Assembly: GCF_963664555.1 (NCBI RefSeq)
Contig: NZ_OY761461.1
Coordinates: 1-64,000, forward strand
Length of the DNA stretch: 64,000 nucleotides
Source of the DNA: Labilibaculum sp.
Lineage (GTDB): Bacteria > Bacteroidota > Bacteroidia > Bacteroidales > Marinifilaceae
Direction of reading: 5' to 3'
Made by a program: the position numbers and the translations under genes. This document shows, piece by piece, positions 36,008 to 50,084 of this stretch (its first letter is position 1; every line of letters begins with the position of its first letter). Under the pieces are notes generated by a model. That model saw only the letters and a list, made by a program, of their open reading frames with translations. It was not told the DNA's origin and ran no database searches.

Positions 36008-36260
36008 GCCTAAAAATGGTTTTTTGCTCATGCTTAAATAGGTAAAGCCTGAAAAAATGATTTTTTGCCCTATACCTAAACAGGTAAAGCTTGAAAAATT
36101 GATTTTTGGGTCAATGCCTAAATGGGTAAAGCCTGAAAAATTGTTTTTTGGATCAATGCCTAAATAGGTAAAGCCTGAAAAATTGATTTTTTGCTCAATG
36201 CCTAAATAGGTAAAGCAAAAAATGATATTTCGAAAAAACTAAATGGGTAAAGCAAAAAAC
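36008..36260. repeat. Degenerate 42-bp tandem repeat array
   Basis: Units start at 36008 (39 bp), 36047, 36089, 36131, 36173 (42 bp each), 36215 (37 bp) and 36252 (partial). The most constant part is GGTAAAGC, at 36041, 36083, 36125, 36167, 36209 and 36246. Each unit also has a T6G block and CCTAAATAGG, a small inverted repeat. Stop codons occur in every frame, so it is not coding. It has no spacer/repeat division as in CRISPR. Confidence 0.85.
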
Positions 36261-40042: not shown

Positions 40043-40124
40043 TACCCAGGGCCGGGATCGAACCGGCACGGGTTGCCCCACTGGTGTTTGAGACCAGCGC
40101 GTCTACCAATTCCGCCACCTGGGC
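40043..40124 (-). tRNA. tRNA-Leu (anticodon CAA)
   Basis: On the minus strand the cloverleaf is complete: acceptor GCCCAGG/CCTGGGT, D-arm GGCGGAATTGGTAGAC, anticodon arm CTGGT-CTCAAAC-ACCAG with anticodon CAA at the centre, a long variable arm (GTGGGGCAACCCGT), and T-arm GCCGG-TTCGATC-CCGGC. The long variable arm and CAA identify leucine reading UUG. 82 bases are encoded, with discriminator A; the 3' CCA is not encoded. A consensus promoter lies just upstream. Confidence 0.96.
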
Positions 40125-48122: not shown

Positions 48123-49595
48123 ATGATTAAATTTATATACAAAACATCTATAGCAGGATTGATATTTCTGTTTTTATCTGTTTCGGCTTCAGCCCAAAAA
48201 ATGAACAACACTTTGTATTTAATGCAAAATGTTCCTCAGTCAAATCAGTTGAATCCGGCCATTCAACCCGAATGCAAAGTTTTCGTTGGCTTTCCGGCGC
48301 TGAGTTCAATTTATCTGAATTACAGCAACAGCAGCTTTGCTTACAGCGATATAATTAAAGATGGTACAGGAATCAGAAAAGATTCTTTAGTTGTTGATAT
48401 CAATAGCTTTCACGATGCATTGCAAACAACCAATTTTGTGTCGCAGCAATTTGAACTGACTCTTTTTGCCCTCGGAATACGCGCAAAAGATTACTTTTTC
48501 ACACTGGATGTGATTGAGAAGGAAGATTCCCGTTTCAGTTTCGATCAGGAAATGGTGACATTTTTGAAAGACGGCAACGCCTCATACAGAGGAAAAACTG
48601 CAAACTGGGGCGGACTGGGATTGGATGCAAGTTACTATCACGAAGTTGCTCTGGGTGTATCGAAAAAAATAAACGACAAATGGACGGTTGGTATCAAAGG
48701 AAAAATGCTGTTTGGTATAGCCAACATGCACATGGAAGATTCCGACATGTCCGTATTCACCTCTGCTTCCGGTAACGAGATTGTTTTAAATTCGGAACAC
48801 CGTCTTCGTGTTTCCATGCCAATTAATCAAATCGGTTTGGATGCGGACGGATATGTGAATGACATTGACATTGATGGTGATGATTACGATGCAGATTTCT
48901 TCGCAAATACCGATAACAAAGGTTTTGCGGTTGATTTGGGTATGACTTACCAAATGGATGAAAAAACCCGCTTATATGCAAGTATATTGGACATTGGATC
49001 GATTAACTGGAAAACGGATGGTCATGAATTCTCTCAGAAAGGTTCGTTTACCTGGACAGGAGCCGACTGGTCGCAATCGGGAAATTCCAATGATCCAAAC
49101 TATCGCGAAATTGAAGATGTGTTTGAAGACCTTACTGATTCTATTGCTGATGAATTTCGCGTGTCAAACGGAATAGATTCTTACAGAGTAGGACTTCCTG
49201 CCAAAATTTATTTAGGCGGAACACACGACCTTAACAAAAGAGTGAATGTAGGTGCATTAAGCAGAACCGAAATTTTTAACGGCAAAATACAATCGTCATT
49301 AACACTCTCAGCCAACGCACGTTTTTTCAGAAATCTAAGTACCACTTTAAGTTATTCGGTGGTAAACAACTCGTACAATAACATTGGATTTGGATTGGCA
49401 ACAAAGTTAGGCCCAACACAGTTTTATGTGGTGAGCGACAATGTAATGGCGGCCCTTAAACCAAATACTGCTCACTTGGCAAATATTCGTTTCGGAATCA
49501 ACTTTTTGTTTGGATGTAAAGACAAAACAAAGAACAAAAACTCATGCTCTTTCGAGGATGAAATTAAAAACAAAAAGAAGCCATTGTACAAATAA
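48123..49595 (+). CDS. DUF5723-type outer membrane protein
   Basis: A 490-residue protein with a signal peptide ending SASAQ. The start of the mature part (LYLMQNVPQSNQLNPAIQPECKVFVGFPALSSIYLNY) fits DUF5723, a Bacteroidetes outer membrane beta-barrel family reminiscent of PorP/SprF. Aromatic-alternating strands run through to FGINFLFGCKD. The C-terminal KNKNSCSFEDEIKNKKKPLYK is hydrophilic. It shares an operon with the preceding lipoprotein. Function unknown. Confidence 0.8.
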   Translation: MIKFIYKTSIAGLIFLFLSVSASAQKMNNTLYLMQNVPQSNQLNPAIQPECKVFVGFPALSSIYLNYSNSSFAYSDIIKDGTGIRKDSLVVDINSFHDALQTTNFVSQQFELTLFALGIRAKDYFFTLDVIEKEDSRFSFDQEMVTFLKDGNASYRGKTANWGGLGLDASYYHEVALGVSKKINDKWTVGIKGKMLFGIANMHMEDSDMSVFTSASGNEIVLNSEHRLRVSMPINQIGLDADGYVNDIDIDGDDYDADFFANTDNKGFAVDLGMTYQMDEKTRLYASILDIGSINWKTDGHEFSQKGSFTWTGADWSQSGNSNDPNYREIEDVFEDLTDSIADEFRVSNGIDSYRVGLPAKIYLGGTHDLNKRVNVGALSRTEIFNGKIQSSLTLSANARFFRNLSTTLSYSVVNNSYNNIGFGLATKLGPTQFYVVSDNVMAALKPNTAHLANIRFGINFLFGCKDKTKNKNSCSFEDEIKNKKKPLYK

Positions 49596-49648: not shown

Positions 49649-49678
49649 AGACTGCCTTGCGGGGCAGTCTTTTTTTTT
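49649..49678 (+). terminator. Terminator of the envelope gene trio
   Basis: Perfect stem AGACTGCC (49649-49656) / GGCAGTCT (49663-49670), six-base loop, then eight T. Confidence 0.95.
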
Positions 49679-49725
49679 GATATTAATAAGGATGTTACAC
49701 CAACTTAATAAGTCTGAAACCCGCG

Positions 49726-49936
49726 CGCAGGCTAGGTGATTATAGCGCAGGAAGGGGTCAAATGCTGCAGAAAGAGGTGATTTACCCGCAGAATTACATA
49801 TTTTGCCACAGAACGTATTGATTTACCCGCAGAACGGACTAATTGTGCCGCAGAACGTATTGATTTGCCTGCAGAAGGGCATATAAAACCCACAGATTTC
49901 TCTGATTGTACCGCAGAACAGAATTTTTTGACTCAG
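49726..49936. repeat. Phased array of CGCAG motifs every 20-21 bp
   Basis: A core (C/T)(G/A)CAG(A/G) occurs at 49726, 49746, 49766, 49787, 49807, 49828, 49849, 49870, 49891, 49912 and (degenerate) 49932, spacing 20,20,21,20,21,21,21,21,21,20. The 15-16 bases between cores vary, although GAACGTATTGATTT(A/G)CC recurs. The period is two turns of B-DNA. It follows the terminator at 49649-49678 and precedes the GC-rich element at 50085. Not coding in any frame over its length. Confidence 0.9.
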
Positions 49937-50084
49937 AGAAACAACAACAGAACATAGGACGGACAATTCCTGTCAAAAAAACAATTTACCACGAAGAAAA
50001 AGTTCATAACTTCCCGTTATTGATTTGGTTATAAAACATTAGAACCAAACGACAAGAGGAATTTCACCTGATAAATGATACCAT

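Follow-up and report, generated by a model that had tools for sequence, protein, structure and literature searches.

What holds eleven short sequence words in a strict register while the bases between them vary? The question is raised by an intergenic array in a stretch of 64,000 nucleotides (called the window here), the first 64 kb of a contig in a 4.97-Mb genome whose nearest named relatives belong to Labilibaculum (Marinifilaceae, Bacteroidota). The upstream neighbour of the array is a DUF5723 gene. Its product is 97% identical to the copies in L. euxinus and L. manganireducens, and it lies outside the protein family to which such arrays are linked (see below); no gene of that family was found within the window. 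The features of the locus are listed in Table 1. A hairpin comparable to the one in front of the array is visible in the stretches L001–L009, and the leader is common to the window array, the start of an array at 920 kb in the same genome (CTCTGAAACCCCCG) and other copies.

Table 1. Features at the array locus of the window.
Feature	Position	Strand	Basis
DUF5723 gene	48123..49595	+	Pfam PF18990, E 1.7e-91; 85–97% identity in other genomes of the genus
Terminator-like hairpin GACTGCC..GGCAGTC with T-run	49650..49678	+	between DUF5723 gene and array; read from the sequence
Leader TCTGAAACCCGCG	49713..49725	+	alignment of eight copies
Phased array (orphan) with 11 cores centred on CAG, 20–21 bp apart	49726..49936	+	orthologous arrays in L. 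euxinus, L. manganireducens and L. filiforme
Element tail	49937..49965	+	aligns weakly with the 920-kb copy

The array is phased around an invariant CAG

A preliminary description of the locus had reported eleven CGCAG cores in a register of 20–21 bases. The spacing proved exact (intervals of 20, 20, 21, 20, 21, 21, 21, 21, 21 and 20), while the label is loose: only 6 of the 11 units contain CGCAG exactly. The invariant part is CAG, with 2.0 bits of information at each of its bases compared with 0.06–1.32 bits per position elsewhere in the unit. Outside the core, mean unit-to-unit identity is 38%.

An autocorrelation no greater than that of shuffled sequence had been named as grounds for giving up the idea of a phased array. 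At lag 21 the array has an identity of 0.44 over 221 bases. The best value among lags 20–22 in 300 dinucleotide shuffles averaged 0.28 (maximum 0.34), and the best among lags 10–90 in a further 300 shuffles averaged 0.34 (maximum 0.39). The scan of intergenic DNA for phased cores that had been suggested at the same time also revealed a peak in this genome, where 102 kb of sampled non-coding DNA contain 13 arrays of at least five cores at spacing 20–21 versus 0–5 for each of the non-overlapping spacing pairs from 12 to 40. Three arrays at 20–21 were found in 43 kb of non-coding DNA from genome G004. Genome G013, which lacks a match to the gene introduced below as gene B, has four arrays at 20–21 and three to four at several other spacings. 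The peak is thus present in the two sampled genomes that carry the gene family and absent in the third.

Two known feature types were rejected. In an Rfam 15 search of the whole window, the sole match above the gathering score was a tRNA at 40043–40124; a known RNA family was therefore discarded as full explanation of the array. The pattern is also not that of a CRISPR array, as the core has only 5–6 bases and the spacers can be aligned between orthologues, being changed by point substitution.

Cores are kept while spacers drift

Copies of the CGCAG array are found behind the DUF5723 gene (locus A) in this genome, L. euxinus, L. manganireducens and L. filiforme. Copy B is located at 920 kb in this genome and at the same place in G040 (same species), and it is present in strain K2S as well; copy C is found in L. 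manganireducens. The eight copies have 7–11 cores each, and all intervals are 20 or 21 save one of 41. Orthologues differ by 0–1 core changes, their spacers by 9–36%. When a column is counted as core if any of the sequences has a phased CAG there, a rule that brings some ascertainment into the contrast, this genome differs at locus A from L. euxinus by 0/33 core and 24/193 spacer substitutions, from L. manganireducens by 0/27 and 53/157, and from L. filiforme by 1/24 and 45/138. The corresponding values are 0/27 and 56/157 between L. euxinus and L. manganireducens, and 0/27 and 14/156 between copy B of this genome and that of K2S.

Fifteen pairs of related gene-linked arrays with other words were compared, the first member of a pair setting the core positions. 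Substitutions affect 41/582 core positions (7%) and 256/1210 spacer positions (21%; Fisher p 2e-15, with sites taken as independent and the 15 pairs overlapping partly through common members). Cores change less than spacers in 13 of the 15 pairs, the exceptions being L213/L257 and L229/L219. The alignments of related arrays contain eight gaps: five are whole units (20, 21, 21, 40 and 41 bases), one has 72 bases and two have a single base.

These data support the earlier statement that strict phase is combined with loose spacer sequence and that the cores are under selection. Gain and loss without phase, which had been proposed as the contrary outcome, is not what the gaps reveal. Two helical turns per unit are likewise supported, from which a position of all cores on one face of the helix would follow.

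Ordinary minisatellites, produced by slippage duplication and decaying neutrally, would account for the period of 21/42 detected in the window by Tandem Repeats Finder and for a copy number that varies by whole units. Neutral decay should, however, spread substitutions uniformly across the unit, in contrast to the core and spacer values given above, and only two one-base gaps occur beside 256 spacer substitutions. The 20–21 peak is moreover restricted to sampled genomes with the gene family, and the arrays are linked to that one family. A slippage repeat was rejected as full explanation by the core/spacer contrast, and we consider neutral minisatellites very improbable.

Gene B and its protein family

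Copy B begins at the stop codon of a gene encoding 247 amino acids, gene B, at positions 920347–921090 (920 kb) of this genome, G000. Its family has seven matches in this genome and three to nine in each of the eight further genomes searched in the genus or species, fragments included; a match is present in 15 of 39 sampled genomes of the Marinifilaceae. Gene B is damaged in K2S. No full-length gene B was found in L. euxinus (G007) and L. manganireducens (G005), both listed as 100% complete.

The gene B protein and its paralogue at 207 kb have no Pfam match up to E 5, and the NCBIfam value of the gene B protein (E 0.025) is at chance level. A profile of 16 family members gave a single match to PDB (E 0.26), and among three family proteins compared with PHROGs one had a weak match (E 0.044). 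No DNA-binding domain was recognised in the family proteins, which are mostly acidic among the 20 counted. An anti-phage defence gene was rejected, as the PADLOC models returned no family up to E 0.1 for three family proteins. Searches with gene B among plasmids and phages found no relative, and a phage, plasmid or IMG/VR element was rejected as full explanation on the basis of gene B and a second family member.

Arrays lie downstream of family genes

For each region we determined the longest run (chain) of one 6-mer, with at most one mismatch, at spacing 20–21; the best 6-mer per region was taken for family and control genes alike. A downstream array, i.e. a chain of at least five, is present at 47 of 62 distinct family genes, near-identical orthologues included, versus 7 of 300 control genes, which come from the sampled stretches of G000, G004 and G013 only. 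Behind the other 15 family genes no such chain was found. The genes derive from 74 family matches, 30 of which became loci; 33 stretches were added, partly beside known matches, together with four genes from the sampled stretches. ORFs shorter than 180 residues or without an ATG start (fragments and the damaged K2S gene) were left out of the 62.

For the 61 family genes with a full 450 bp downstream, 46 pass at spacing 20–21, 11 at 19–20 and 25 at 21–22, the latter two pairs overlapping with 20–21. One gene each passes at 22–23 and 23–24, and none at eight other spacing pairs. Shuffled downstream regions gave no array (0/61), nor did the upstream regions of the 29 family genes having 450 bp there. 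Steps of 20 and 21 bases are mixed in 31 of the 47 Marinifilaceae arrays, and the step pattern itself recurs between arrays of different words. The linkage to one protein superfamily, which extends beyond the Marinifilaceae (see below), is the unifying feature that had remained hidden from the preliminary description.

It had been asked whether such arrays lie mainly behind terminators. By a crude scan of the 47 gene-linked arrays, a terminator precedes the array in 16 and follows it in 11, with both in one and neither in 21; the position behind a terminator is real for part of the arrays, but 'mainly' does not hold. In addition, 11 of the 47 arrays have a phased chain of at least three words in inverted orientation, again by a crude scan.

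These positions bear on the possibility that the arrays act as RNA, as protein-binding words in the leader or 3' untranslated region of the family mRNA (autoregulation, mRNA stability). Several Marinifilaceae arrays are indeed placed between stop codon and terminator, and the distant arrays described below lie upstream of the gene, possibly in leaders. On the other hand, the terminator-like sites between gene and array, in the window as well as in the 16 cases from the crude scan, make action at the RNA level less likely. The lock of the spacing to two turns of B-DNA and the chains in inverted orientation argue against it as well, and overall we regard this explanation as unlikely.

Distant relatives carry arrays upstream

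Beyond MARINIFILACEAE, the family profile found one weak relative, G062 (E 4e-5), among the 294 further genomes sampled from the class. Upstream of its gene there are six words at exactly 21 bp. With the G062 protein as query, a search of the phylum found matches in 131 of 395 genomes, mostly to the CarboxypepD_reg domain only. We read eleven loci that match in the helical body, including G062 as the locus that gave the lead and a further superfamily member at 4721 kb of the genome studied here. Nine of these 11 have an upstream chain of 5–12, and an array of at least five cores is missing at two. At 20 control loci with a match to CarboxypepD_reg only, the chain is 3 in 17 cases, 4 in two and 5 in one.

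A profile of 13 distant bodies was then used on 294 genomes of another class and found members in 31, seed genomes included. Another 23 loci were then read, each from a different genome: 17 of them have 5–18 cores, always upstream of the match, and six have no array of at least five. The same segments passed at seven other spacings in 3 of 322 cases. Beyond the loci read there are 49 body or partial matches, many of which are not in the distant counts. Alignment of the two branches by hhalign resulted in a probability of 96.3% (E 1.9e-9) over 220 columns. The arrays accompany a Bacteroidota superfamily whose proteins share a body some 225 residues long and are often represented by several paralogues per genome; they consist of about 5–18 words every 20–21 bp beside the gene. 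Distant members are often contained in longer frames of about 240–420 residues (G483, G371, G438 and G062). The G062 protein has its CarboxypepD_reg domain at the C-terminal end; G483 and G371 have nine matches each.

In 26 distant arrays, 216 of 218 intervals are 21 bases, and at least one open frame runs through 21 of the 26, which readily arises from a 21-base repeat but could also be read as seven-residue repeats of a small protein. The mixed 20/21 steps break any such frame in the 31 Marinifilaceae arrays mentioned above, and the translated window stretch has stops in all six frames. A coding repeat was rejected on these grounds as full explanation, and hardly any weight is left for coding arrays.

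Words, C-terminal tails and a probable exchange of blocks

The array words include CGCAGG, CGAAGG, CTACGGG, CTACAGG, CAATAGG, CGATAGG, TAACTGG, TGGAGAA, GGCTATG, CGAACGGA, GTTACGG, GTCACGG, TTCCGCAC and TGTCTTGG, with about 35 different words in the consensus list by our count. In gene-linked arrays the core carries about 1.5–1.9 bits per position and the remainder 0.55–1.1. The word of L213 is uncertain because two chains (CATCAG and AGGAAT) are equally long. Words are paralogue-specific, and word similarity drops as protein identity drops. All 15 pairs with at least 80% identity had a word similarity of at least 0.8 at first; the later genes L252 and L253 broke this rule. Syntenic homologues of the gene at 2020 kb are about 90% identical and have alignable flanks, yet their words differ: CTACGGG in this genome and K2S, CGATAGG in L. 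euxinus and CAACTGG in L. manganireducens.

An alignment of the C-N-A-Y-N-G-G subfamily (15 rows, that of L257 empty, with a partial identity list) reveals a common body and an exchanged basic tail after Y-x-S-x-Y. Tail 'LR' occurs with CGATAGG (L252, L177), 'QRRKFARN' with CAACTGG or CAACAGG (L253, L254), 'GRKK' or 'AR' with CTACGGG or CTACAGG, and 'IR' with ATCAGG or ATCAGA (L257, L227). L252 combines a body 91% identical to that of L207 with L177's tail type and word. Agreement between tail and word is confined to this subfamily; elsewhere similar tails are found with different words. L031 and L171 have nearly the same tail with CGAAGG and GCGCAGC, respectively, tails beginning with NRER go with four or more words, and 'LR' tails outside the subfamily with TGTCTTGG or CCTAATG. 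Among distant relatives with an aligned ORF end (7 of 13 rows), no basic C-terminal tail was seen by eye.

After pairs with more than 97% body identity and arrays of fewer than five cores had been dropped, 1627 pairs remained. Over all of these the partial correlations of word with tail (0.16) and of word with body (0.17) are equal; for the 209 pairs with body identity above 0.5 they are 0.36 and 0.23. We infer that the tail may read the word. Tail and array are, however, neighbours in the DNA, so that their covariation may reflect physical linkage, and the switch of words is explained if the 3' end is exchanged as one block. In L. manganireducens, C-terminal gene fragments are followed by arrays, and the start points of two such fragments agree to about 5 bp while their surroundings differ. 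A block comprising a 3' gene end and its array is present at two loci of this species with 95% identity over 935 bp, and copy C includes, as judged by eye, some 60 bp from the 3' end of gene B.

Orphan arrays and dispersed elements

The window array has no member gene in cis. By its sequence it is a stray, gene-less copy of an array normally found beside family genes, namely the orphan homologue of the array at 920 kb. Another orphan of this genome (L109:17105) has a word resembling that of a paralogue which is missing here. At locus A, arrays of other words are found in G004 (eight units) and G016 (six), with a short one in G006 (four), and chains of at most three in K2S, G001 and five other genera. 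The intergenic site behind the DUF5723 gene (L001–L012) is a hot spot with different words or variable inserts by species. In L. euxinus and L. manganireducens the cores of the CGCAG array are intact despite the absence of full-length gene B. Either the gene was lost recently or other factors use the sites. Nothing speaks more strongly against a purely cis, cognate-only reading than this persistence of orphans.

This persistence also fits another explanation, which sees in the arrays REP- or MITE-like intergenic elements that are copied and dispersed independently and often settle beside the family. An unlinked factor, for instance a transposase or a nucleoid protein, would then keep the cores, and the neighbouring protein would not bind them. 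The different words at locus A, the 935-bp block, the neighbouring fragment starts and the gene B remnant in copy C are all compatible with such elements. So are Y1 transposase matches within 3 kb of a superfamily gene in 5 of 49 cases, a count that covers nine genomes, probably represents three distinct loci and comes from a superfamily search that was incomplete per genome. Dispersed elements do not easily explain why linkage to one superfamily is kept across classes while the position shifts between upstream and downstream, nor why word similarity falls with protein identity. In an unsystematic look, terminal inverted repeats and target duplications were not noticed. We treat this explanation as a serious one, though improbable.

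Comparison with known systems

Plasmid iterons are direct repeats beside the Rep gene, with a step of about two helical turns and a protein-specific word. The array module resembles them in repeats about two turns apart next to the gene of a candidate binder, but it is chromosomal, has several paralogues per genome and includes gene-less copies. Membership is not supported: family proteins gave no Pfam Rep match and only a chance-level NCBIfam value, and gene B lacks a plasmid or phage relative among those searched. In ParR/parC partition sites, phased repeats also lie beside the gene of the binding protein, at a spacing of one turn instead of two, and the array-linked protein has no Pfam match. 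REP/BIME sequences with RAYT transposases form intergenic arrays with paralogue-specific words, gene-linked as well as dispersed copies, and REP hairpins. The array module shares the intergenic position, the words specific to a paralogue, the gene-linked and dispersed copies and some nearby Y1 transposases; its units, however, are short words at 20–21 bp without REP hairpins. The absence of any Pfam match to E 5 for the gene B protein and the 207-kb paralogue includes Y1_Tnp and thus speaks against REP/RAYT membership. By analogy, the module would work like iterons or parC sites, but by the tests made it is not one of them.

Two kinds of published repeat share some features with the arrays. 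The BrickBuilt MITE of Porphyromonas gingivalis, as far as the excerpted report describes it, is one element family with a contiguous 23-nt repeat and inverted ends; it shares with the arrays the occurrence in Bacteroidota, the intergenic position, a short tandem unit and a leader, but the excerpt does not mention a linked protein family (PMC4596501). TAACTGA direct repeats, according to the part of the source available, consist of one fixed heptamer, contiguous and, in the main genome described, mostly just before start codons; intergenic word repeats, some of them in Bacteroidetes, are the common feature (PMC4679880). Heptamer repeats were rejected as full explanation of the arrays. A description of arrays such as those reported here was not found in the open-access literature, which is weak evidence of absence.

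A proposed gene-plus-array module

We conclude that the arrays belong to an undescribed gene-plus-array module. The combination of an own word for each array with a spacing of two helical turns suggests a DNA-addressing system. According to the reading that we favour by a small margin over doubt, the family protein, alone or in a complex, binds the words of its own array, and the window array would be one such address. Since there is one unit per two helical turns, all units would lie on one face of the duplex; the protein most likely occupies its words side by side on this face, and the bound units may build a regular nucleoprotein row. In the Marinifilaceae the basic C-terminal tail, encoded beside the array, may help to read the word. 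As tail and array would be inherited or swapped together, specificity could switch as a block. Orphan arrays might be extra sites used in trans, or relics of lost genes. In the cell the module might anchor the chromosome locally, regulate its own expression or maintain itself.

A bolder version of this module is more doubtful and is offered tentatively. It would be a Bacteroidota-wide, self-addressed marking of DNA, in which every paralogue has an array of its own with about 5–18 words on a single helix face, block exchange of tail and array rewrites specificity and the 3' fragments with arrays in L. manganireducens serve as silent donor cassettes.

A family that neither Pfam nor NCBIfam describes (in its Marinifilaceae branch), with arrays across the phylum in which the phase and not the word is conserved, would represent a cis module of a new kind. 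Should the protein read its own array, the roughly 35 words would provide matched protein–word pairs for the study of how DNA specificity evolves and for the construction of orthogonal DNA addresses. Otherwise, the conservation of the two-turn register points to some other DNA-organising factor of Bacteroidota that has escaped recognition.

Other repeats and neighbours

The preliminary description had supposed that a 42-bp array at 36008 is a related class. This array exists, but the kinship was not borne out: its unit is 41–42 bases and it has no 21-base sub-register (longest chain two at 20–21 and six at 41–43), and it could not be confirmed as belonging to the same class as the window array. 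It belongs to a second class of intergenic arrays, with a 41–42-bp unit and short palindromes (window 36012–36230; L047:17024–17203; L098:1842–2053; L156:4254–4650). The palindrome GTACnnnGTAC occurs in those of L047, L098 and L156, and a 20/21 sub-register in L047 and L098. The site matching the window array at 36012 has a longer version in G006, while little is left in L. euxinus and L. manganireducens. In G004, L111:8566–8689 and L120:3688–3788 have a common 42-bp unit built on GTGGGTACAAATGATC; no superfamily gene was found in these two stretches.

The Y1 (RAYT-like) matches within 3 kb are located at G000:C1:4721175 and 2481595, G002:C33:245662, G007:C1:11161 and G001:C54:10561. Directly after the CGAAGG array at about 207 kb of G000 there is an ORF (L031:6690–7290) that holds repeats of TTGCATGCAACGTCT. 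From its motif we take it to be a REP-associated tyrosine transposase; it was not among the matches of a PF01797 search.

Nine tandem tracts of 65–68 bp with a common CTCTCAATCGTACCAAAGTGGAATTGAAAT in L150 (G013) are probably parts of CRISPR arrays. Heptamer repeats (ACTTGTT or CAAGTTCC) with periods such as 14, 21, 23 and 28 in L046:2256–2338 and in L141 (G013) form a class apart from the arrays described here. Two longer tandem repeats were also observed: a 172-bp unit at L031:18569–19188 (3.6 copies, 96% matches), the start of which resembles a small ORF, and a 131-bp unit at L038:10958–11580 (4.6 copies), which resembles a repeated tRNA gene.
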